Shown here: positions 2,769-22,498 of the stretch, piece after piece
Layout of the letters: each line of letters begins with the position of its first letter
Position numbering within the stretch: the first letter of the stretch is position 1
From: Deltaproteobacteria bacterium
Lineage (GTDB): Bacteria > Desulfobacterota > DSM-4660 > Desulfatiglandales > Desulfatiglandaceae
DNA length: 34,053 nt
Assembly (NCBI GenBank): GCA_021163285.1
Contig: JAGGXA010000164.1
Span: 1 to 34,053 of the forward strand
Direction: 5' to 3'
Program-made: the position numbers and the translations under genes
The notes under the pieces: model-generated
The model's database searches: none
What the model was told of the DNA's origin: nothing
The model's input: only the letters and a program-made list of their open reading frames with translations

Positions 2769-2930
2769 AGGGAACTTACAGAAAATAATCTCAGCATCCT
2801 GCTTGCCCTTTTGCCCGTCTTCTGCGTTGCGGTAACAGTTGTATAGTTCACTATGCAAATGTTACCACGCCTTGAAGACGAACAAAAATTCTGCGCGATA
2901 TGCTGAGATTATTACCTTTCAGTTCCCTTA
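2769..2930. repeat. Palindromic repeat family A, copy 1 (about 160 bp)
   Basis: The two halves are near-complementary: AGGGAACTTACAGAAAATAA at the left end matches the reverse complement of the right end, which closes with CAGTTCCCTTA. The whole element is nearly identical to the reverse complement of 16359-16518. The centre contains ATAGTTCACTAT. The right end coincides with the TAA stop codon of the U32-family gene. There is no transposase ORF. It resembles a MITE or other non-autonomous palindromic repeat. Confidence 0.8.
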
Positions 2931-4082
2931 TTGCAGAACCTCAATTGCTTTATCAAACTTTTCTATCATCTCCATTCTCCAATCTTCATCTATGGTTACG
3001 GCACGGCCTGCAATTTTTTCGCAATAACCGCAAATCTCACAATCCGTATGAAGACAGTCGATCTTTTTTATATGATCAAGAAAACCATCCAGCCTGGTGT
3101 TGTCTATATAGACCTTTTGAGGAAAGGGTTCACGTAATACTCCCATAATCCGGTCCATTTTCTCCTTTTCGATCAGATCCGGACGGTCAATAAGATCAAG
3201 GTTCGGCTGTATATATATTCCCTCCTGAGGGAGTGTCAATATCTCGGCAAGGTTTCCGGGATAAGACCTGAGCTCATAGGCATTAAGTATCCTGATAAGA
3301 CTTTCCGTCCCCCTGAATCTTTCTACAAGCTTAATGCAGTCTATGCCTGCATCCTCATAATAACAGATATCCTCTGGACGTATCCAGCATGACCTTAAAA
3401 ATTCCGACGGTCTAAAGAGCTTCCTTCTCTGGCAGGACAGCTTGCAGTAATCGACTGCAAAACCACCTGATGGGTGACTGTTCTGCGAGCCGTGAGAAAC
3501 CATATTACGGTGATGCAGATCAAAAGGGCAGTTATAGAGGCAACAGTGATTGGCTATTACCTCAAGCTCGCAATCCACCCCTTCCCTGATGAGGCCCAAT
3601 GTTTTGAAGTCCCTTGTCACGGATTCGGGCAGGATGATCTTATCCGCCCCCATCTCTTCCCAGAAACGTGCAAGATAGACGCTGTTTATCCGGGCAAAGG
3701 ATGAAATGCTCACTTTTAGCTGAGGGAAGTTCTTTTTGATCAACTGGATGAGAAAAGGGAGTGAAACCGTCACCATATCGGCTCCGGTCGAGGAGATCCA
3801 TTCAAGATGTTCCATGATCCGCTTATGCCCTTTTTTTGTGAACTCTTCATTATCAAAACAGGTGGCATTTATTATGTAGTTAAAACTCAATCCCCTCCTC
3901 CGGGTTTCGGAAATAAAGCCTTTTGCCTCCTCCTTATACACCCTGGGGATAAATATGAGCATCCTGCCGCCACCGAGAGGGTCTCCCCATGCCTGGCCAT
4001 AGAGACTGCTCACGGTAGTTCCCTCAAGATTATCTAAAAGCGCCGGGTCCCAATTGGTTGCAATCGAATATTGAACACCCAT
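2928..4082 (-). CDS. U32-family (peptidase U32-like) iron-sulfur protein, paralog 2
   Basis: The 384-residue product belongs to the U32 family, whose characterised members UbiU, UbiV, TrhP and RlhA are [4Fe-4S] proteins acting in hydroxylation rather than proteolysis. The upstream gene encodes a clear paralog with the same N-terminal pattern (SxxTNWDxxLLD). Shared Cys sites are a CC-x3-CP motif at about residue 208, further downstream cysteines, and CWIRPEDI. At the C-terminus is a C-x4-C-x2-C-x2-C cluster (TDCEICGYC) suggesting a second metal site (inference). ATG 4082 is chosen over TTG 4088 because AAGGAG sits 8 nt upstream of it. The gap to the upstream gene is 2 nt, so the two are surely co-transcribed. 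Substrate unknown. Confidence 0.8.
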   Translation of the reverse strand: MGVQYSIATNWDPALLDNLEGTTVSSLYGQAWGDPLGGGRMLIFIPRVYKEEAKGFISETRRRGLSFNYIINATCFDNEEFTKKGHKRIMEHLEWISSTGADMVTVSLPFLIQLIKKNFPQLKVSISSFARINSVYLARFWEEMGADKIILPESVTRDFKTLGLIREGVDCELEVIANHCCLYNCPFDLHHRNMVSHGSQNSHPSGGFAVDYCKLSCQRRKLFRPSEFLRSCWIRPEDICYYEDAGIDCIKLVERFRGTESLIRILNAYELRSYPGNLAEILTLPQEGIYIQPNLDLIDRPDLIEKEKMDRIMGVLREPFPQKVYIDNTRLDGFLDHIKKIDCLHTDCEICGYCEKIAGRAVTIDEDWRMEMIEKFDKAIEVLQ

Positions 4083-4084
4083 TC

Positions 4085-5260
4085 TCAATTCTCCTTAAAG
4101 ACATCGCCGTTTAACATGGCCTTGATAAAATCTTCAAAAGGCTTGCGCCGCTTTTCCGCCTCATCCCTGTCAAAATGGCCTGTCTTATCAAAGGTTCTTT
4201 GACAGAAACCGCACTTTTCGCAGTCTCTGTTGCGGCAGGAGCCGTTTTCCCGGAAAAAATCAATAAAATTCCCAAACTTCTTGTTATCTATATATATAAA
4301 ATCCCTGAAGGCAAAATTCATAAGCCCTGCTATCCGTCCGATCTTTGAAACATTAACATGTTCCGGTTTATTGAAATAATCAAGATTCGGCTTTAAATAG
4401 ACGTCAGGGTTTGTAAGTGTGAGTATGTCTATGAGATTTCCGTCAAAGCTCCTCTTTTGATAGCTCATTACCGTATTAAGGAGCACCTCTGACTTTTTGA
4501 ACCTTTCCACCACCTTGAATTTGTTAAATCCGATCTCTTCATAGGCCCAAAGGTCTTCAGGCCTGATCCAGCAGGCCTTAATGATCTCGACCGGCTCTGT
4601 AAATTTCTTCAGGGTGCAATTGAAATAAGGAAATTGAAGGTAACATGAATTGTCCATGCTATGGGTCTGTGAGGCGTGGCCGTCATGAGCCACATGCTCC
4701 AATTGATGGGGACAGTCGCGCAGACAGCAGGGATTGGAAATAAGCTCAATCTCACATTTAACCGCCTCCCTGATGGCGGAAAGCGTATCAAAATCCCGGT
4801 TTATATTCTCATCAATAATCATCTCATCCACACCAAAGTCCTCATATTGTTTCGCCCTGCTCACGGAGTTTATCCGGCATACGCTCGAGGCCTTGATCTT
4901 CATCCCCGGGAGGACTTCCTGAACCAGTTTTATCATGTAAGGAAAGCCGACTGTTACAAAATCCACACCAATAGAACCTATCCATTCAAGAAGCTCTACA
5001 ATCTCTCTGTATCCCTTCCTTGAATAGTGAATATTGTTTATGCACATCGTGTTCAGAAGGTAATTAAATCTTATTCCCGCCTTATGCGCGTGCGTTACAT
5101 GTTCCCTTGCCTGCTCGCGGCTTATCTGCGGTAGCAAAAAAGAGGGCCTTGCTCCGCCTATCACATCAAAAGGGAGCTTTCCATATATTTCCTCGGTACA
5201 TGTGTCTTTAAGGCCATCCAGCAAAGAATCATCCCAGTTAGTCGATACTCTTAATTCCAT
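4085..5260 (-). CDS. U32-family (peptidase U32-like) iron-sulfur protein, paralog 1
   Basis: This 391-residue U32-family protein is homologous to the next gene along its whole length. It carries NPCCLRDCPH in the middle, CWIRPEDLW after it, and the same C-terminal C-x4-C-x2-C-x2-C spacing (RDCEKCGFC). The track ORF begins at 5326, but ATG 5260 (MELRVSTN) is preferred: GGAG lies at the right distance and the N-terminus then matches the paralog. The coding region overlaps the end of the LuxC-like gene by 23 bp. Paired U32 proteins have a precedent in the UbiU-UbiV heterodimer, which performs O2-independent ring hydroxylation. By analogy these two may form one complex (inference). Confidence 0.8.
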   Translation of the reverse strand: MELRVSTNWDDSLLDGLKDTCTEEIYGKLPFDVIGGARPSFLLPQISREQAREHVTHAHKAGIRFNYLLNTMCINNIHYSRKGYREIVELLEWIGSIGVDFVTVGFPYMIKLVQEVLPGMKIKASSVCRINSVSRAKQYEDFGVDEMIIDENINRDFDTLSAIREAVKCEIELISNPCCLRDCPHQLEHVAHDGHASQTHSMDNSCYLQFPYFNCTLKKFTEPVEIIKACWIRPEDLWAYEEIGFNKFKVVERFKKSEVLLNTVMSYQKRSFDGNLIDILTLTNPDVYLKPNLDYFNKPEHVNVSKIGRIAGLMNFAFRDFIYIDNKKFGNFIDFFRENGSCRNRDCEKCGFCQRTFDKTGHFDRDEAEKRRKPFEDFIKAMLNGDVFKEN

Positions 5261-6716
5261 AATCATTCTCCTTTTTCTCAACGTCGCACCAGCGCAAGAG
5301 GGAAGAGATTGGAGCAATACCGTCATGATGCCACATCATGGACGGCAATGCCATGTTGCCTGGTGATGTAATCCTCGCCACACCTGCCTCCCCAAGCCTT
5401 GATATAAACTCTTTTTCCCTGTTATCCCCTATTGACAGCGCTGCATTTTGCAAAAACGGCCCCAAAGGCCTGAGGGCTGGAATGATCTCAAAGATATCAT
5501 GCACGGCAAATACCCTGATAAACCTGTTCAGTGGAGAGGCATGAAAAATACCGGGGTCTTTTTCACAGACGACAGTCCATCCTGTGTTCTTTGAAGATGC
5601 AAACATGGTTACATCCTCTCCATTCAGTTCTCTGAACTCATATCTCCCCCTGAGTTGATTGATCAAAGCGGCCTCTCCCGGAGATAGGGCGCCCCGCGGC
5701 ATCTTTGTTTCCATCTTTTTCATCGCATTTGCCAGGGCACCGGCAAACTCCTTTGGCGATACCTCTCCCCCATCCTCCACGTAATAGACATGCGGCGCAA
5801 GACAGGCATGTTGATCAAACATGGAGATGTCATATGCAACAGATGCGGCAAGCGCATCAAGGGCATCATAATTCAATCTGTTCCTGCCAAGCACCCCGAA
5901 CCCTAACTTATGCCCGTGGGTCAGGACCGTGACCCTGCGGGGGATCCTCTTCATGACAGAGGTCAAGGTCTCCACTCCGCCGAAGAGGATTGCGGCATCC
6001 GCCTGATTAAAGGCTGCACTTTCCAGGTCTTTATTCCCTCCTTTCCAGTAAAGGGCTGCGAGACTGCAAGCCATTTCAGGGTCAATATCCTCAATCGTCT
6101 TTAAGTAGAGAGGGATAAATGAGGGTTCACCTGATGCCAGTTTTCCCAGGCAGGCGGACTTTATAAGGAGAGACCTCATGAAAACGAGATGGGGAAGGGC
6201 CGGGATATTCCCTGAAAAAAAAGAGACGATAAGCCGGGGTCCAAAGGCCCTGCAATAACCGTTTAAACTTTCCGAGTATTGAAAATCATCTAAATAGAAG
6301 GGATTTCCTGTCTCTGACTTGAGAGCACGCAGGATATCTTCCTTAAGGGAGCTTTTCATCTCCACATCAATGCTTTCATCCACTGCCCCGGGAGAAAGGC
6401 CGGTCATTACAGGTATTATCTTCAGCGCCAGTTTTCGGTATGGATATTTCCTGTCAAGCCACAAACGGGAGGCCTTGTCGAGTGTATGGACGATTTTCTC
6501 TACAGGCATACCGCTCAAGTATTTATCCCTCTTCTCTTTTAAGTAGCCTGCAAGAAGTGCCACCTTTTTTTTTGTGAGAACCGGAAACTTTAAATGGACA
6601 ATTTTGTCCCCGCGTTGATACTCTCCTGTTGTTACGGGGGGCATCTCAGGGCTGAAGCCGGGCGGGAAATAAAAGCCATTTGCCTCTATTACCTCCATCA
6701 CATTCCCCTCCATCAT
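5238..6716 (-). CDS. LuxC-like long-chain acyl-CoA/acyl-protein thioester reductase
   Basis: The 492-residue protein matches the LuxC family (PF05893), an aldehyde-dehydrogenase-fold NADPH-dependent reductase that turns an acyl thioester into an aldehyde. The best landmark is FDQHACLAPH at about residue 305, which fits the LuxC site where Cys carries the acyl group. The C-terminal half also has conserved LuxC-like patterns (ITSPGNMALPSMMWHHDGI). The start overlaps the stop of the LuxE-like gene as ATGATG. An internal ATG at 6698 has a stronger ribosome site (GGAGGGG, 6-nt spacing) and could be the true start. No luciferase genes are nearby, so bioluminescence is not implied. The partner LuxE-like enzyme directly upstream would supply the acyl thioester. 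Confidence 0.9.
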   Translation of the reverse strand: MMEGNVMEVIEANGFYFPPGFSPEMPPVTTGEYQRGDKIVHLKFPVLTKKKVALLAGYLKEKRDKYLSGMPVEKIVHTLDKASRLWLDRKYPYRKLALKIIPVMTGLSPGAVDESIDVEMKSSLKEDILRALKSETGNPFYLDDFQYSESLNGYCRAFGPRLIVSFFSGNIPALPHLVFMRSLLIKSACLGKLASGEPSFIPLYLKTIEDIDPEMACSLAALYWKGGNKDLESAAFNQADAAILFGGVETLTSVMKRIPRRVTVLTHGHKLGFGVLGRNRLNYDALDALAASVAYDISMFDQHACLAPHVYYVEDGGEVSPKEFAGALANAMKKMETKMPRGALSPGEAALINQLRGRYEFRELNGEDVTMFASSKNTGWTVVCEKDPGIFHASPLNRFIRVFAVHDIFEIIPALRPLGPFLQNAALSIGDNREKEFISRLGEAGVARITSPGNMALPSMMWHHDGIAPISSLLRWCDVEKKENDYGIKSID

Positions 6717-7840
6717 ATCCCTTCCATGATACCTGTCATCCTGCTCATCTCCTCTATTGTCAGGGAACAGCCGCGGACATCCCTTTCTCCGGCCCTCCCT
6801 GAAACCTCAAAACCACCATCAATAATCCTTCCAAGATCATCAGTCTGAATAGCGCAAATGTGTCCTCTGTTTGCCAGATCAAAGTACCTCAAAAGACCTG
6901 TCTCACCTATGGGCAGAGGCTCAAGAGTATCAGGGTTTACAACCAGGACCCTGGTCCATGGCGGGATAAATTTTGCAGGGAGATTATCCACCCCAAGGCC
7001 CCGGTTTTTCAGGTTGTTGTCATAATACTGTGAGGCTGTCTCGGTCATTCCAATGAGGTTTACACAAAATTCCCTTGAAACCCCCAGGAATTCTCCGCAA
7101 TAATCGAGAAATTCTTCCCTTACCACATCTCTGCTCTTTCCCTTGATCCCGCCTGCATCGAGGCATCTGGAACCTTTCGGGAGTCTGAATTTCAACCTGT
7201 TGGCCCTCAAAAAATCGAAAAAATTGATGAAGCCGAATGAACCTCCGCAAATGGTTGCCGGTATATTGTCCTCTTCAGAACTTCTGAGAGCGTCTGCAAG
7301 GGCATCGGCATCAAATCCATTCTTCCCTATAAAAAAACGGCTCCCCTGAAGGCCGAAAGAATCTTTCAACCTGTTCATGCCAAAAACCATAACCATATTT
7401 GGGGCGATATCAGGGGAAGGAGCAATAACAAAGAGCCTGCTCTTTATCCTGTCGGGAAAAAGGAGGCCTGAGGCAGCATGAGAAATGGTGGCCTTCATCA
7501 GTGCGAGTCCGCCCATATCATAGTCTACCCTGCCCTTTTGATCCGGATTAACGGTTCCGCTTGTCATGAATGTTTTAACTGTGAGAGAAGGAAGGAGGGT
7601 AAGACGAACCGCCTTAAAGACATCTGTGAAAACAGGGGGAACATCTTTCCAGGAGGCAATATTGCCGGGCGTAACCCCTCTCCTTTGACAATAACGCCTG
7701 TAGAGGGGGATATATTTATACTGGAGAGCAAAGCTCCTGATGGCCAGCCGGTTAAAGCCTTCATCATCCCGGTGGTCAACCCCTCTTTCGATAAAAGACA
7801 AGATATCTTCATCAACAGCCTTTACATCGGGGGGAAACAT
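6713..7840 (-). CDS. LuxE-like acyl-protein synthetase (acyl-AMP ligase)
   Basis: The 375-residue product fits the LuxE family (PF04443) of the ANL superfamily, which activates a carboxylic acid as an acyl-adenylate and then holds it as a thioester for LuxC. Visible landmarks are the PPVFTDVFK-like segment at about residue 70, the TSGTVN phosphate-binding loop, and a Cys 18 residues from the C-terminus (RGCSLTIEEM, Cys358). That Cys matches the acylated Cys near the C-terminus of LuxE. AGAGGT precedes ATG 7840. The gene overlaps the flavoprotein gene upstream by 19 bp and the LuxC-like gene downstream by 4 bp, so translational coupling is likely. Acid substrate unknown. Confidence 0.88.
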   Translation of the reverse strand: MFPPDVKAVDEDILSFIERGVDHRDDEGFNRLAIRSFALQYKYIPLYRRYCQRRGVTPGNIASWKDVPPVFTDVFKAVRLTLLPSLTVKTFMTSGTVNPDQKGRVDYDMGGLALMKATISHAASGLLFPDRIKSRLFVIAPSPDIAPNMVMVFGMNRLKDSFGLQGSRFFIGKNGFDADALADALRSSEEDNIPATICGGSFGFINFFDFLRANRLKFRLPKGSRCLDAGGIKGKSRDVVREEFLDYCGEFLGVSREFCVNLIGMTETASQYYDNNLKNRGLGVDNLPAKFIPPWTRVLVVNPDTLEPLPIGETGLLRYFDLANRGHICAIQTDDLGRIIDGGFEVSGRAGERDVRGCSLTIEEMSRMTGIMEGI

Positions 7841-9075
7841 TCCCGTACCTCTATATGAAAGGTGATCATTTTTTTTAGAAGCAGCCTTTTTAACATCTCG
7901 GTCAGCTCCCCCCTTGAAACCCCTTTTTCGCTTATTATCTCATTTATGGACATGCGGCCGTTCAGCATCTCCGTCAACCAGCCCCAGGCCTTGCCGAGAA
8001 TCTCCTCTATCTCCTTATTTCCTGAAAGGGCCATGGGTTTAAGACCGTCATCAAGGGCCGGAAGTTCCCGGAATCCTTTATAAAGGCAAAAATCGGTCGG
8101 CCGGTAGGCGAAAAGACAGGGTTCCCTTCCGAACTTTCTGTGATAGATATAGCGATATGCGCTCAAACCGGCGCTGATCCCATCGGAGACGGCCCTTGAA
8201 AATGAATTATACCCCCCTGCCGTAACATCCCCTGCGGCAAAAATCCCGGGGACGGATGTCTGCATATCCCGGTTTACCTCTATAAATGACGACCCTGACC
8301 AGATGTCTCCCATGTTAATCCTGCAAGTGGGTAAAAGTTCATAGGAATTAAAGTCAAGCAATACCCCGGCGCACAGCATATCCCGTCTGCCTTCAGGTGT
8401 CAAAACACTTATTCCTTTCAGGCCTCCATCACCCCAATAACTTTCGACCCAACCGCGAATGATCTCACCTGAACCATCTTTGCCTTCCCCGTCATCTCCC
8501 TCTTCCTCCATTACAAAGGCAATATCCGACCCTGCGCCTGCACGATTCAGCTCTCTTATAAGGGGAATCAGGTTCATAAGCTTTGGACTGCCTACGATAA
8601 CAAGTCTCGGCTCCCACCTCCTGCTTAACAACTCCTTCGTGCGGGATACGATAAACTCATACCCCATACTCGTTACCATAAGCCCTTTTCCAAGATAATC
8701 TATCTCATTTACAAGAACCTTAATCCCGGTCGTAATAACAACGGCAAGTGACCTGAAGACCTTTCCGCCGGAAGTTATGACCTCTTTCACGTCTCCCCTG
8801 CCTGTGATACGCGTAACCCTTCCATAATGGACAGGTATATTTAATTTTAAGATGTCTTTCTTCATACGGCTGAGGATTTCCTTCCCCTCAATTTTCCATG
8901 AAGGTCCGGTAAAAAAACACCCCTGCCATGCAGCGAGACCGCCTATAGAAGAATTCTCGATAAGGAGAACACTGCATGGGACGGCCCTGTCTCTTTTCAC
9001 CCATCGGGCCCTGACAGCAGCGCTTATACCTGCAGGCCCTCCCCCGACTATGATAAGGTCCCAGTCATAATTCAT
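7822..9075 (-). CDS. Thioredoxin-reductase-like FAD protein with extra C-terminal helical domain
   Basis: The N-terminus (LIIVGGGPAGISAA) is a clear FAD-binding Rossmann motif, and FAAGDVTAGG near residue 300 is the second flavin motif. The layout is that of thioredoxin-reductase-like pyridine nucleotide-disulfide oxidoreductases. The redox-active CxxC of true thioredoxin reductases is not visible, and the NAD(P)H loop reads VIVGSPKLMN instead of GxGxxG, so electron transfer may be unusual. After the flavoprotein core come about 90 residues ending in a helix-turn-helix-like segment (SINEIISEKGVSRGELTEML). ATG 9075 (MNYDWD) is chosen over 9201 because GGAG lies 8 nt upstream. It overlaps the LeuD-like gene by 11 bp. 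It may reduce or desaturate a pathway intermediate (inference). Confidence 0.82.
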   Translation of the reverse strand: MNYDWDLIIVGGGPAGISAAVRARWVKRDRAVPCSVLLIENSSIGGLAAWQGCFFTGPSWKIEGKEILSRMKKDILKLNIPVHYGRVTRITGRGDVKEVITSGGKVFRSLAVVITTGIKVLVNEIDYLGKGLMVTSMGYEFIVSRTKELLSRRWEPRLVIVGSPKLMNLIPLIRELNRAGAGSDIAFVMEEEGDDGEGKDGSGEIIRGWVESYWGDGGLKGISVLTPEGRRDMLCAGVLLDFNSYELLPTCRINMGDIWSGSSFIEVNRDMQTSVPGIFAAGDVTAGGYNSFSRAVSDGISAGLSAYRYIYHRKFGREPCLFAYRPTDFCLYKGFRELPALDDGLKPMALSGNKEIEEILGKAWGWLTEMLNGRMSINEIISEKGVSRGELTEMLKRLLLKKMITFHIEVRECFPPM

Positions 9076-9583
9076 CCGAATTCTCCACAAGGTATGGGAT
9101 GAGTCCCCCGGAGGACAAGACCTTTTTGATATGCGAATCAATGGGAGAGAATCGATATTTATTTTTACTGGAAAGTTTAATAAAACCGTTTTCCGGATCA
9201 ATCAGGCATTTCTCTCCATCGCAGGCCCTGTCATGGATATTACCGCATACAAGGGGAGGTATCCCCATATTCACAAGGCTGCGAAAGAATATCCTGGCAA
9301 AGGATTTTGCAACAACCGCCTTGATCCCGCAGGCGAGAAGCGCTCTTACAGAAGTCTCGCGGCTGGAACCGCAGCCAAAGTTGTATCCTGCCACAATCAC
9401 CAGGTCTTCATCCAATGAGGCGCTGTTAACGCCTGAACCAAGCCTTTTCATCCCTTCAAGCAGGCCTTTTTTAATCCTTTCCCTTTCGAGGCTGAAAAAG
9501 GAGGGAGGGTGCAGGATATCCGTGTTTACCTGGTCGCCAAGCTTCCATATCCTGCCCTGAATTATAGTTGAAGTATCCGTCAT
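9065..9583 (-). CDS. LeuD-like small subunit of an aconitase-family hydro-lyase
   Basis: This 172-residue protein is the swivelling small subunit of isopropylmalate, homoaconitate or methylmalate-type dehydratases. Landmarks are GDQVNTDILHP at the N-terminus and YNFGCGSSRETS in the middle, both standard for LeuD. It works with the LeuC-like large subunit encoded upstream to isomerise a 2-hydroxyacid by dehydration and rehydration. A gap of about 100 nt separates the two subunits and contains a degraded copy of the GTTCCCACGC repeat. ATG 9583 has only a weak ribosome site. The short length (about 165-170 aa) matches archaeal-type LeuD/HacB/AksE rather than the longer enterobacterial LeuD. Substrate specificity cannot be read directly. 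Confidence 0.9.
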   Translation of the reverse strand: MTDTSTIIQGRIWKLGDQVNTDILHPPSFFSLERERIKKGLLEGMKRLGSGVNSASLDEDLVIVAGYNFGCGSSRETSVRALLACGIKAVVAKSFARIFFRSLVNMGIPPLVCGNIHDRACDGEKCLIDPENGFIKLSSKNKYRFSPIDSHIKKVLSSGGLIPYLVENSDEL

Positions 9584-9618
9584 AATAATATCCGTTCATA
9601 GTCCTTATCCAACAACTT

Positions 9619-9641
9619 GTTTCCACGCTCTGCATGGGAAC
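9619..9641. repeat. Degraded copy of GTTCCCACGC-TCT-GCGTGGGAAC repeat
   Basis: GTTTCCACGC-TCT-GCATGGGAAC is an imperfect version of the hairpin found intact at 31916-31936. It sits in the spacer between the LeuC-like and LeuD-like genes. I recall similar short palindromes being widespread in environmental bacterial genomes. Confidence 0.6.
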
Positions 9642-9685
9642 GAGCGCCATAACCCTGAACCTTTAAACCTGTAATCCGTAACCAT

Positions 9686-10930
9686 TTACACCTCCCCTGG
9701 ATCAGTAATCTCTCCCTTCAGGGCTGATGCCGCTGCGGTCAGAGGGGATGCAAGATACACCATGGATAAGGGGTCTCCCATCCTGCCCTTGAAGTTCCTG
9801 TTTGAGGCGCTGACGCACCTTTCACCGGCAGCGAGTATCCCCTTGTCTATACCGCCGCATGGGCCGCAGCCCGGATTCAGGATCACCCCGCCTGCATCCA
9901 TCAGGGACTGGATATAACCTCTCTTCAGGGCCTCCATATAAACCTTGTTTGATGCCGGCTGAATAATGAGTCTCACATGTCTTTCCACCCTTTTTCCCCC
10001 AAGAATATAAGCCGCCATCCTGAGATCCCTGAGTCTGCCACCCGTACAGGAACCTATAAAGACCTGATCGATTGCCACCCCCTTTAAATCAGCCGCATTA
10101 ACTACGTTTGAAGGACTGTGGGGAAGGGCAACCGCAGGTTTTAGTTGGGCAAGATCTACCTTGATCTTCTCCTTATACTGAAAGTTATCCTCAAAAGGAG
10201 GGGTGATTCCTCCCCGGGCTCCTCCCCTTTTCGTCATATATTCATAGGTGATATCATCAGGGAAGAATGAACCGTTTTTTGCGCCCCCTTCCACCACCAT
10301 GTTGCATATTGCAAACCTGTCATCCATGGAAACGGCCTTGTCTCTATCGTAGAACTCCAGCGCCTTATACAGGAAACCGTCCTGACCTTTTCTTTTCAGG
10401 AGTTCAAGAGCAATATCCTTTCCCATGATATATGGGGGGAGTTTTCCTGTAAGGTCAATGCGCACGGCTGTCGGAGGCATAAGCCATGTCTTTCCGGTAA
10501 TAAGGGTATACAAAATATCGGTAGAGCTCATTCCCGTGGCAAAACAGCCGAGAGCGCCCGCTGTGGTGGTATGGGAATCCGCCCCAAGCACCAGCATCCC
10601 GGGCCCAATCCATGGCCCTTCAACAAGGAGCTGATGGCATATTCCCTTGTATACAAGGCTGTTTGTTATCCCCTCCTTCTCGATAAAATCAATGACCTTC
10701 TTTACCAGATTGGCCCGTTCCACCGTGGATGGAGGAGCGAAATGGTCAACAGTTATAAGGACTTTTTCTTTGTTCCAGATCTTCTCCTGCAGTTTCTCAA
10801 GTTCCGGCAAAAGGAGCACAAGAGCCGGATCATGCAAAAGCACAAAATCGACCTTTACAGGAAGATATTCACCCTCCCCTTCTCCTGTTACATGGTCCGT
10901 GATGATCTTTTTTGAAAATCCATTACCCAT
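9686..10930 (-). CDS. LeuC-like large subunit of an aconitase-family hydro-lyase
   Basis: The 414-residue product is the catalytic [4Fe-4S] subunit of a LeuC/HacA/AksD-type dehydratase. Cluster ligands appear as the Cys in GSCTGGRL and the pair in NPGCGPCGG. The substrate-side motif GADSHTTTAGALG is intact. The length fits the archaeal/NifV-linked subgroup. The track start at 11008 runs deep into the upstream synthase gene. ATG 10930 (MGNGFSKK) is preferred because it gives an 8-bp overlap and the family's usual N-terminus, with AGAGGTG upstream. With the synthase and small subunit it forms a 2-oxoacid chain-extension module, but no isopropylmalate-dehydrogenase-type gene follows, so the module as seen stops at the isomerised hydroxyacid or the unsaturated acid. 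Confidence 0.9.
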   Translation of the reverse strand: MGNGFSKKIITDHVTGEGEGEYLPVKVDFVLLHDPALVLLLPELEKLQEKIWNKEKVLITVDHFAPPSTVERANLVKKVIDFIEKEGITNSLVYKGICHQLLVEGPWIGPGMLVLGADSHTTTAGALGCFATGMSSTDILYTLITGKTWLMPPTAVRIDLTGKLPPYIMGKDIALELLKRKGQDGFLYKALEFYDRDKAVSMDDRFAICNMVVEGGAKNGSFFPDDITYEYMTKRGGARGGITPPFEDNFQYKEKIKVDLAQLKPAVALPHSPSNVVNAADLKGVAIDQVFIGSCTGGRLRDLRMAAYILGGKRVERHVRLIIQPASNKVYMEALKRGYIQSLMDAGGVILNPGCGPCGGIDKGILAAGERCVSASNRNFKGRMGDPLSMVYLASPLTAAASALKGEITDPGEV

Positions 10931-12110
10931 CCCCCGAAAGCACCTCTTGCACAATTTCCATGAATACGGCCTCCGAAAAACCGAGGCAGCGTTCATAATA
11001 CTTTTCAAGCTCCACAGCCATTCTGATGATATCCTTTTTTCCCTCTCTTATCTTCCGCTCCTTGACCTTACGGAGTATCTCCTGTAACTGTACGTAATGG
11101 GCCTCATATCCCAGTTCTTTTAAAAGGTGTCTTATTGTCCCTGTACCTGTATGCTTTCCGAGGACAAAGGCTGATTTTCTGTTTACCTCCGCGGGGTCAA
11201 TGCCTGTGTAAATCTCCTTGTCTTTAAGTATTCCATCAACGTGTATTCCTGACTCGTGACGAAAAGAGTTTTTCCCGACAATCGGGGTATGGGGCGGCAG
11301 GAATATGCCGGAACATCTCTCAACAAGCCTTGAGAGGTCATAAACCCTTTTGGTATCTATCCCATGGGGCCGACGGATGAATTTATCGATGCCGAGAGCC
11401 ACTTCATGCAGGGGGGCATTCCCCGCCCTCTCACCAATCCCGTTGACCGTGACGGATGGGCAACTCGCCCCTGCTTTCAGCGCTGTGAGCGTGTTGGCGG
11501 TTGCAAGCCCTAAATCATTGTGACAGTGAACTCCGAGCTCCATCCCGCAGGGAACACTTTCCCTGAGTTTTTTTACCATCCTCTCCATCCCGTCCGGTTC
11601 CATAATACCCACAGTATCGCAGATAAAGGCCCTTTTAGCCCCCCATTCACCTGCCTTGCGACATAGCTCACAAAGGAAAGGCAGACAGGCCCTCGACGCA
11701 TCCTCGGCAACGAGATTAACCCTGAGGCCCATCCGGACGGCATAGATAATCATATCTCTTGTCAGCCTCGTTACTTCATCCCCTGTCATCCCGAGCTTGC
11801 TTTTAAGGTGTATCGGGCTTACAGGGCATATAAGGAATATCTCCCCTGCCCCGCACCCCCTTGCCTGCTCAACCTCTTCTCGTCTTAACCTTGCCGATAC
11901 CCCAATTGATGCGGAAAGATCCTCCCCGACGATGGCTTTAATCGTATCCCTCTCCTCTTTAGAGACCGAAGGCATGCCGACATCGAGTATCTGGACTCCC
12001 GCCCGGTCAAGCTCCCTTGCAATTCCGATTTTTTCTTCTTTGGTAAAAAAAACCCCGGGGGTTTGCTCCCCCTCTCTCAAGGTACCGTCTAAAATACTGA
12101 TACTATCCAC
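10923..12110 (-). CDS. Homocitrate/2-isopropylmalate synthase-family enzyme (NifV/AksA-like)
   Basis: This 395-residue HMGL-like TIM-barrel enzyme condenses acetyl-CoA with a 2-oxoacid. Diagnostic motifs are LDGTLREGEQTPG at the N-terminus, HCHNDLG with the metal-binding His pair, NGIGERAGN, and the C-terminal FRHESGIHVDG. It lacks the LeuA regulatory domain (LeuA is about 510 aa), and its length matches NifV/AksA homocitrate synthases. No nif genes are visible. The start is taken as GTG 12110 because GGAGG lies 5 nt upstream; the track's TTG 12125 has no such site. It overlaps the radical SAM gene by 8 bp. The exact oxoacid (2-oxoglutarate, pyruvate, a branched acid or other) is unknown. Confidence 0.9.
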   Translation of the reverse strand: MDSISILDGTLREGEQTPGVFFTKEEKIGIARELDRAGVQILDVGMPSVSKEERDTIKAIVGEDLSASIGVSARLRREEVEQARGCGAGEIFLICPVSPIHLKSKLGMTGDEVTRLTRDMIIYAVRMGLRVNLVAEDASRACLPFLCELCRKAGEWGAKRAFICDTVGIMEPDGMERMVKKLRESVPCGMELGVHCHNDLGLATANTLTALKAGASCPSVTVNGIGERAGNAPLHEVALGIDKFIRRPHGIDTKRVYDLSRLVERCSGIFLPPHTPIVGKNSFRHESGIHVDGILKDKEIYTGIDPAEVNRKSAFVLGKHTGTGTIRHLLKELGYEAHYVQLQEILRKVKERKIREGKKDIIRMAVELEKYYERCLGFSEAVFMEIVQEVLSGDG

Positions 12111-13662
12111 GGACGCCTCCAACAATCCATCTCATATATCTGCAGTATATCCTTCCCCGGAAAGGGCTGCTGCTCTTTGCGGGATTCGGGTGGAAAGAAC
12201 AATGGTGCCTGCATCTCGTCCTTTTCAGGAGCCTTTCAAATCCAAACCGGTCCAGGAGCTTTCCGTTTCCAAGGTAATCGGGGATATAATATCCAATACC
12301 GCCCGAACCTGCACCTGCCCGAAAAAAATCTTCAAATGAGTTTCTTAAAGATACGATCCCAAACTCCTCAGGGTTCATATACCAGGGGGCAGCAGGCTCA
12401 ATCGAAATGGGAGATGTCCATGTCCTCCCGATATTTTTAAACCTCCGCTTTATCTCCTTGCGAAGTGAATATGTCTTTGCAAGGTCTTTAAACTTCTCTC
12501 CGGGTATCCCCATGGCGAAGAATATATCGACCCTTATTCCCAATTTTTCCGCACGGGATATTGTCTTCATCAATGCATCATTTGAAAATGAAAAGCTCTT
12601 GTTACGACGTCTTATCCGCTCATCTCCCGATTCAGGGGAAAGGGCGATAATAGAGCCGTTCAAGTCAAAAGTCGCTGCAAATGCCTTCAGAAAGGTTTCA
12701 GAAGGAATAGAAAAAGACTCGAAATAACACTTGACCCTTAGCCCCCTCATCCTTAAAAGAGGAAAAAGTTCAAGGTAATATCTTTCTCCTTCCTTTCCCG
12801 GGTCAAAGGCGATATGTATCATCTCATAGCCGGATTCAACCGCCTCAGATACAGTATCTGCGACCTTCGAATGGGTGCGGAATACTACACTGCGCCTGCC
12901 GTTTACGAGATACTGGGCCCTGTTGCCGCCTCCGCACCATGTGCAATTGCCTGAACATCCCCGCCCGATATTTAATGGAAAGATGGCAGGCCCCAAGTGA
13001 AAATACCTCCTGTTCTTTTCTTTTGAAAGGCCCTTTGCCCATACAAAGGGCATTCCCATGTAATGCACATAATCGCTGCTGTCCAAAAGGAGATCAAGAT
13101 TCGCAAAGGAAGAGGCGTCAAGGTCTGATTCATTCGCAACGAAAGAGATGGGATTTTCCCTGATCTCATCCCTCTCCCGCCATATAAGGTTGGGGACTGC
13201 TTTCAGCTCTTTACCATTTTTAATCGAGGCCATCAATGCCGTAAGGGGGGCCTCTGCATCACCCCGGATTATCGCATCAATCTGGGAAAAGGAGGCCATG
13301 ATATCCCTCGAAAAGAAGCTTGCAGTGTAGCCTCCGAGAACAATAAAAATATCCGGACTGTATCGTTTTATTTCCCCGGCAACCTTCATGACGTCATATG
13401 ACTGCTGGTGCCAGTGAAGAGGTATCGCCACAACAAGGGGTTTTTTTTCTTTTAAGAAGGAAAGAGGAGAAAAGACCCCGTTTTTTATCCAGGCAAGTCC
13501 GAGGTGCAGTATCTTTGTCTTATAACCGTTACGAACAGATAGATCGGCTAATGACCATGTGCCCATGGGGAGGAGGTTGATGGTCATGCATTCTCCATAA
13601 GGACGGGAAAAACTGGAAAACCCGGGCACATGAATAAAGAGAAGATCGAGGGTATTTATCAT
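12103..13662 (-). CDS. B12-binding-domain-type radical SAM protein
   Basis: The 519-residue protein has an N-terminal cobalamin-binding-like Rossmann region (residues about 40-130, with IFIVLGGYTASFF) and a radical SAM core with RGCSGNCTWCGGG, the C-x3-C-x2-C motif that binds [4Fe-4S] and SAM. A Cys-rich tail (TRCRHHCSFHPNP) may bind another cofactor. Class B radical SAM enzymes of this shape often methylate unreactive carbons or rearrange skeletons, but the B12-binding His motif DxHxxG is not evident, so cobalamin use is unproven. It is the first gene of the minus-strand cluster. No clear ribosome site precedes ATG 13662. Its product overlaps the synthase gene, tying it to the pathway. Confidence 0.88.
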   Translation of the reverse strand: MINTLDLLFIHVPGFSSFSRPYGECMTINLLPMGTWSLADLSVRNGYKTKILHLGLAWIKNGVFSPLSFLKEKKPLVVAIPLHWHQQSYDVMKVAGEIKRYSPDIFIVLGGYTASFFSRDIMASFSQIDAIIRGDAEAPLTALMASIKNGKELKAVPNLIWRERDEIRENPISFVANESDLDASSFANLDLLLDSSDYVHYMGMPFVWAKGLSKEKNRRYFHLGPAIFPLNIGRGCSGNCTWCGGGNRAQYLVNGRRSVVFRTHSKVADTVSEAVESGYEMIHIAFDPGKEGERYYLELFPLLRMRGLRVKCYFESFSIPSETFLKAFAATFDLNGSIIALSPESGDERIRRRNKSFSFSNDALMKTISRAEKLGIRVDIFFAMGIPGEKFKDLAKTYSLRKEIKRRFKNIGRTWTSPISIEPAAPWYMNPEEFGIVSLRNSFEDFFRAGAGSGGIGYYIPDYLGNGKLLDRFGFERLLKRTRCRHHCSFHPNPAKSSSPFRGRIYCRYMRWIVGGVRG

Positions 13663-21121: not shown

Positions 21122-21205
21122 AAATCATTCTTCAAAGTTTTTAAGATAGTATAGATATTCAATAACTTATCTGTAATTTTCAATAATTTATGGAGGAAAT
21201 GCCTT

Positions 21206-22498
21206 ATGGCAGAAGAAGCAATAAACCTGAGAGAACAACAGGGAGAATTCAGAAAAAAGGTTAGGGAAATATTACCAGAAGGTAATTTAGACCTTTGTCT
21301 TACTTGTGGGGCCTGTGCCAGCGGTTGCCCTGCTACCGGTCTTGAAGATATGGATCCCAGAAAGTTTGTCAGGATGGTGGTGCTGGGAATGGATGAAGAG
21401 GTAATGACCACGCCATGGGTCTGGATGTGCAGCATGTGTCAGCGTTGCATTTATGTTTGTCCCATGAAAGTGGATATCCCCCGGATGGTTTATCTGGCAC
21501 GTCAGACCTGGCCGCGTGAAAATCGTCCGAAAGGGATACTTGGTTCGTGTGATATGGCGCTGAGAAATGATAGTTGCAGTGCTATGGGGGCATCTCCCGA
21601 AGACTTCCAGTTCGTTGTGGAAGATGTAGCTGAAGAAGTCAGAGAGACACAGCCGGGCTTTGAAACACTCCGGGCGCCGATAGATAAACAGGGTGCAGAA
21701 TTTTTCCTTAACCAGAATTCAAGGGAGCCAGTAACCGAGCCGGATGAAATGATACCGCTCTGGAAAATTTTACATGTTGCAGGGATTGACTGGACTTACG
21801 GAAGCAAAGGATGGGGAGGAGAAAATTACTGCATGTTTCTCTCCGATGATGATGGCTGGAAACATATTGTCAGCACAAGTATCAAGCAGGCCGAAGACCT
21901 GGGGTGTAAGACCTATCTAAACACTGAATGAGGCCACGTAACCTTTGCAGTCCTGGAAGGACTGAGAAAATTCGGAATCAAGACTAACCTGGATGTTGTA
22001 AGTATCTACCAGTATTATGCCAAGTGGATCAGGGAAGGAAAATTAAAGGTTAATTCTGACTGGAATAAGGATCTGAAAGTCAAGTTCACTGTTCAGGATC
22101 CATGTCAGATTGTACGTAAAAGCTATGGAGATCCAGTGGCGGACGATCTTCGGTATGTGGTAAAAGCAGTTGTGGGAGAAGAAAACTTTATTGACATGAC
22201 CCCAAACAAATCAAACAACTATTGCTGCGGCGGCGGTGGTGGATATCTCCAGTCCGGTTATGTGGATGCGCGTCATCAATACGGCAAGATCAAGTTTGAT
22301 CAGATCACAGCCACTGGAGCTGATTATTGTATAGCTGCCTGTCATAACTGTCATGCACAGATTCATGATCTCGCTGAGCATTTTGAGGGTAAATATCACA
22401 CAGTCCATCTATGGACACTTATCTGCCTTTCTCTCGGTATCCTTGGAGAGAATGAACGGGAATATTTAGGTCCTGATCTGGCAGAAGTGGGATTATAA
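21206..22498 (+). CDS. HdrD-like (heterodisulfide-reductase/CCG-domain) iron-sulfur oxidoreductase, predicted selenoprotein with UGA=Sec at codon 242
   Basis: The ORF track splits this gene at TGA 21929-21931, but the same frame stays open to 22498, giving 430 residues. The N-terminal part has two [4Fe-4S] ferredoxin motifs (CLTCGACASGCP and CSMCQRCIYVCP), as in HdrC. The C-terminal part has CCG-type cysteine motifs, as in HdrB: DPCQIVRKS, NNYCCGGGGG, and CHNCHAQ. The TGA falls in TE-U-GHV, where related CCG proteins read TECGH, so selenocysteine replaces a cluster-site Cys. A SECIS-like hairpin begins 16 nt downstream. GGAGG precedes ATG 21206. HdrD-type proteins move electrons between thiol/disulfide or persulfide couples and other carriers. 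A frameshift is not needed to explain the split. Confidence 0.9.
21929..21964 (+). promoter_or_regulatory. Bacterial SECIS-like element following the in-frame UGA
   Basis: After TGA, CAGTCC (21948-21953) and GGACTG (21959-21964) pair perfectly around a 5-nt loop UGGAA. The stem starts 16 nt after the UGA and the loop carries G, which matches the spacing and loop rule known for bacterial SECIS elements read by SelB. The element is inside the coding region, as is usual in bacteria. Confidence 0.85.

Follow-up and report, generated by a model that had tools for sequence, protein, structure and literature searches.

A 430-codon frame on the forward strand of the window (the whole 34,053-nt stretch of DNA analysed) is broken solely by a TGA, and the sequence evidence indicates that the region is very probably one intact gene, in which the UGA is recoded as selenocysteine (Sec) and which encodes an HdrD-like protein. 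This high confidence was based on the comparative evidence for a SECIS-like hairpin and on the conservation of codon 242; the recoding of UGA 21929 itself is considered near certain. A gene that standard annotation would split would thereby be whole. The window derives from genome G000, a draft assembly of 262 contigs and 97% completeness, in which DsrA was found, the host being a sulfate-reducing Desulfobacterota bacterium.

Table 1. Features of the predicted Sec-HdrD gene, with window positions
Feature	Positions	Strand	Basis
GGAGG ribosome-binding site, 9 nt 5′ of the ATG	21192..21196	+	Read from the sequence
Predicted Sec-containing HdrD-like (HdrC-HdrB fusion) protein, 430 aa, UGA as Sec242	21206..22498	+	Translation; Pfam Fer4_8 28-89, CCG 295-386; full-length orthologs
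Two [4Fe-4S] ferredoxin motifs, Cys31/34/37/41 and Cys75/78/81/85, HdrC-like part	21296..21460	+	Invariant columns of alignment A1; Pfam
In-frame UGA, predicted Sec242, motif TEUGH	21929..21931	+	Translation; TGA or Cys at this codon in homologs
Bacterial SECIS-like hairpin, 7 bp, loop GGA at 21955-21957	21948..21964	+	Folding and comparative evidence
Intact CCG repeat, predicted noncubane [4Fe-4S] site: Cys300, Cys340-Cys341, Cys379, Cys382	22103..22351	+	Invariant columns; EtfD alignment
Intrinsic-terminator-like hairpin and T run 3′ of the stop codon	22533..22563	+	Sequence

Reading frame, codon 242 and recoding signal

When the TGA was translated as Sec, the frame read ...YLNTEUGHVTF... 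and continued to a TAA ending at 22498, so the 430-aa translation confirms the claim of the preliminary description, made from the letters alone, that the TGA is in frame with both ORFs and that the frame stays open across the gap. It had also foreseen that annotation would give a truncated gene and a fragment, and a mechanical ORF finder indeed returned a 241-aa ORF (21206-21931) followed by a 120-aa ORF from a GTG at 22136. Scored apart against Pfam, the 241-aa half matched Fer4 families and the second half the CCG family, and because the two halves match different families, annotation would split the gene. Within the window, this was the sole homolog-supported TGA joining two frames each 80 codons or longer. 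The terminator-like hairpin after the TAA suggests that transcription probably ends with this gene and, together with the GGAGG before the ATG, that it appears to be monocistronic.

Homologs were sampled from 99 genomes and by a search of genome contigs, some loci being retrieved by both. Of the 116 homologous matches (some loci counted twice), 106 had TGA at codon 242 and 10 had Cys, and no third residue occurred; among the 104 distinct sequences, TGA was found in 96 and Cys in 8. The records with homologs include Desulfonema magnum, Desulfatitalea alkaliphila, and Dethiosulfatarculus sandiegensis, and the complete chromosome of D. magnum (L062) carries TGA at the same codon. At least four Sec/Cys exchanges are required by the tree, the Sec members forming two clades with a mutual identity of about 39%, and a Cys paralog of 64% identity is encoded in the window's own genome (C192:8864-10141). 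The reading that a nonsense mutation or sequencing error split an ordinary Cys gene could draw on the draft state of the source record (262 contigs) and on the TGA being the sole lesion in the frame, but it is refuted by the independent orthologs and retains a negligible probability, because many independent genomes, the complete D. magnum chromosome among them, have the identical TGA at that codon, the half downstream of it is conserved in orthologs, and the SECIS hairpin is under constraint.

Besides a Cys/Sec exchange at codon 242, the preliminary description had named the Sec machinery as something to look for, and the genome was found to encode SelA (602 bits), SelB (370 bits), SelD (380 bits), and a tRNA-Sec (69.8 bits, above the Rfam cut-off). 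Neither of the two grounds that it gave for rejecting the call, missing Sec machinery or orthologs without Cys/Sec at this site, thus applies. SelD of the same genome (G000:C185:11723-12649) contains one in-frame TGA and is probably a selenoprotein too.

The hairpin CAGUCCU-GGA-AGGACUG begins 16 nt past the UGA; it had been noted as 6 bp with a G-containing loop, and proved to be real and of 7 bp when the apical U-A pair is included. A comparable 7-bp hairpin with a G at the loop start followed 7 of the 1357 TGAs on both strands of the window, and 7 bp was reached by 14 of 5000 synonymous recodings of the hairpin stretch. Taken by itself, the hairpin region had weak minimum-free-energy z-scores (-1.1 to -1.8), and an Rfam search of the window gave no match; the evidence for a SECIS element is comparative. 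In 82 distinct Sec orthologs more than 60% identical, the inner six stem pairs were conserved in 79-82 sequences and the apical pair in 81 (T-A 37, G-C 40). The hairpin codons were among the most frozen synonymous sites of the gene: Val249 was GTC in 82/82, Leu253 CTG in 81/81, Gly252 GGA in 81/83, and Arg250 CGG in 42/42. The third base of Ala251 was A after Leu250 CTG (27 sequences), and C (30) or T (2) after Arg250 CGG; as it varies with codon 250, this synonymous site tracks its stem partner. Stems of 6 or more Watson-Crick pairs were present in 69 of the 82 Sec orthologs vs. a mean of 1.8 sequences under synonymous shuffling, whereas no Cys member carried the hairpin, none exceeding 4 bp. 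The distant Sec clade has a 5-bp hairpin of different sequence at the same place. Two marks of a bacterial selenoprotein, a conserved hairpin just 3′ of the UGA and a G in its apical loop, are therefore present. With this comparative support, we propose that the hairpin would direct a ribosome with SelB and Sec-tRNA to read UGA 21929 as Sec.

Codons 237-238 (window 21914-21919), just 5′ of the UGA, were likewise strongly frozen at their synonymous sites in Sec orthologs (Phe TTT in 40/41, Leu CTC in 75/82), and could be an upstream RNA or context signal.

Cluster ligands and the surroundings of Sec242

Judged from its domains and predicted fold, the protein is an HdrC-HdrB fusion of the HdrD-like type, as the preliminary description had proposed: two [4Fe-4S] ferredoxin motifs and a CCG domain lie in one chain. 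It is predicted to be soluble, and no membrane domain was found in it. Residues invariant in the alignment include the eight ferredoxin Cys, residue 242 (Sec/Cys), His244, and the five CCG Cys. The predicted structure (pLDDT 89) had EtfD (9ojn) as its best PDB fold match, followed by HdrB. A single-sequence search of the PDB gave strong matches to HdrC only and weak ones to HdrB; the family profile reached both EtfD and HdrB.

In the profile alignment, the noncubane ligands correspond to EtfD Cys637/672/673/709/712, residue 242 to Cys581, and His244 to His583; in EtfD, Cys581 is a ligand of the linear D1 cluster and His583 of the noncubane one, D2 (PMC13083937). EtfD Cys503, 538, and 584 of the linear cluster have no Cys counterpart here, Cys503 and Cys584 being opposite Ala164 and residue 245, and Cys538 lacking a Cys partner. 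The first CCG repeat is thus degenerate (UGH), only residue 242 of the D1 ligands being kept, and the protein does not carry the two complete repeats of HdrB. The earlier statement that Sec replaces the Cys of a TECGH motif holds, since homologs have either TGA or Cys, while its placement at a catalytic CCG site does not, this being a degenerate first repeat and not a cluster-binding CCG.

Because three of the four D1 ligands of EtfD are missing, the D1 cluster is probably absent here, which would leave Sec242 beside a D2-type cluster; and as His244 aligns with the His of the EtfD noncubane cluster, the selenolate should sit at that cluster. The first CCG repeat would therefore have lost its cluster, with Sec242-Gly-His244 as the remnant. 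From the invariant ligands and the EtfD/HdrB fold, electrons are suggested to pass between the two cubane clusters of the HdrC-like part and a single noncubane [4Fe-4S] cluster bound by the second CCG repeat, where the Sec242 selenolate may serve as a redox-active residue or an exchangeable ligand. The role of a selenolate adjacent to a noncubane iron-sulfur cluster is a concrete chemical question.

The invariance of the second half also bears on whether the UGA mainly terminates, yielding a 241-aa ferredoxin-only product with Sec readthrough as a minor, selenium-dependent event. A Cys paralog in the same genome would fit such a regulated truncation, as would a published bacterial case in which recoding in vivo was only 30-40% (PMC4513850); but the part encoded after the UGA, including every noncubane ligand, does not vary, indicating selection on the full-length product, and we regard truncation as very improbable.

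Gene neighbourhoods and proposed role

About half of the 80 closest loci (~40) carry HdrA/MvhD-type genes, often with metF/metV. At L047, L049, L060, and L081, the Sec-HdrD gene is divergent from that of glutaryl-CoA dehydrogenase Acd (NCBIfam equivalog), and a divergent gene for a carboxyltransferase-family protein, probably glutaconyl-CoA decarboxylase alpha, is also present; L047 and L049 are among the nearest to the window copy by sequence. Across the genomes searched, 24 carry a total of 25 Sec-HdrD genes (clade A, 5; clade B, 20) that are divergent from the nondecarboxylating glutaryl-CoA dehydrogenase gene acd at gaps of 0.3-2.5 kb, and no other orientation was seen among close Sec-HdrD/acd pairs. 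The window copy adjoins neither acd nor hdrA, acd and its partner lying on contig C83 of its genome; a downstream PocR-domain gene is common to the window copy, L047, L049, and L060. No ETF gene was identified in the Sec-HdrD neighbourhoods examined. The pairing with acd was not found mentioned in the open-access text searched, and the neighbourhood link of Sec-HdrD to glutaryl-CoA breakdown appears to be undescribed.

Other arrangements were also observed. Downstream of the Cys paralog are HdrA-like and MvhD genes (L130, G000:C192:1-19000, 3379-8507, minus strand), the HdrA frames looking frameshifted in the assembly. At L135 (7342-12672) and L119 (6001-11283), two same-strand Sec-HdrD paralogs from different clades flank HdrA-like genes, with a spacing of about 3 kb. 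Elsewhere in the window, an unusual run of genes on the minus strand (2928-13662) encodes radical SAM/B12-binding, HMGL-like (isopropylmalate synthase type), and aconitase-family proteins, a pyridine-nucleotide reductase, LuxE, LuxC, and two U32 peptidases, followed by a periplasmic binding protein at 1441-2646; it is perhaps a 2-oxoacid chain-elongation or acyl-reduction pathway.

Its clusters and fold suggest that the protein transfers electrons. Acyl-CoA dehydrogenases of the Acd type reduce ETF. EtfD-like proteins take electrons from ETF (PMC13083937), and the acd pairing thus points to an ETF-linked role. On these grounds and from the neighbourhoods, we lean towards Sec-HdrD being an electron-transfer partner of acyl-CoA dehydrogenase/ETF, namely of nondecarboxylating glutaryl-CoA dehydrogenase, or of HdrA/MvhD modules. 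A more specific proposal, put forward only tentatively, is that both divergent Sec-HdrD clades are dedicated electron-transfer partners of nondecarboxylating glutaryl-CoA dehydrogenase, occupying the same divergent slot, with Sec beside or ligating the noncubane cluster. If so, Sec-HdrD would serve the electron drain of aromatic-compound degradation, and Sec at a noncubane [4Fe-4S] cluster where a second cluster has been lost would be a use not described in the literature examined. The divergent pairing offers a testable role for a selenoprotein family without a demonstrated function in that literature.

Sec is typical of thiol/disulfide sites. Sec-HdrD might accordingly be a disulfide reductase whose substrate is DsrC trisulfide or some other thiol compound, Sec attacking the disulfide by the noncubane cluster, rather than a pure electron carrier; the HdrB/DsrK-related fold and sequence and the presence of DsrA in the genome agree with this. 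However, the neighbours are genes of acyl-CoA and C1 metabolism and not dsr, the scores are far under the DsrK, HmcF, and TmcB cut-offs, and, as in EtfD (PMC13083937), the catalytic iron may be obstructed by His244, so that a disulfide reductase seems rather unlikely.

Comparison with known systems

A selenoprotein of this type is already known; what is added here is the gene context and the mapping of ligands. A Sec-containing Fe-S oxidoreductase (GlpC) was already counted as a family by 2006 (PMC1794560), and a Sec Fe-S oxidoreductase-like/GlpC protein with the motif UGH is listed in a 2026 review (PMC13188914); a term search of the deep-Sep paper found no mention of this family, and a literature search on FadF/EMO found nothing. 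The UGH/GlpC selenoproteins resemble the present one in their single Sec, UGH motif, iron-sulfur oxidoreductase nature, occurrence in Deltaproteobacteria, and, in some genomes, hdrA-type neighbours, while their published operon is glpC-hdrA-frhD-frhG-frhA vs. the acd pairing here. The published UGH member WP_174406253.1 is likened by motif and description only. The Sec-containing HdrD4 reported in Desulfobacterium autotrophicum HRM2 (PMC2702500), likened by description only, is likewise soluble, has HdrC and HdrB domains and Sec, and belongs to a sulfate reducer.

HmcF, TmcB, and DsrK of sulfate reducers share the Fer4-CCG architecture, and related aligned proteins have an invariant ECGH; identity with any of the three was rejected, the scores of 183/750, 169/735, and 127/400 bits, respectively, being far under the NCBIfam cut-offs. 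EtfD of Mycobacterium smegmatis (PDB 9ojn, PMC13083937) is the best fold match, and its noncubane ligands and C-x-H motif align with those of Sec-HdrD, but it also comprises a membrane/heme part, binds a linear [3Fe-4S] cluster, and lacks Sec. In HdrB of methanogens (5odc), the second CCG repeat is homologous and the fold similar, whereas two noncubane clusters are bound there and the first repeat is degenerate here.
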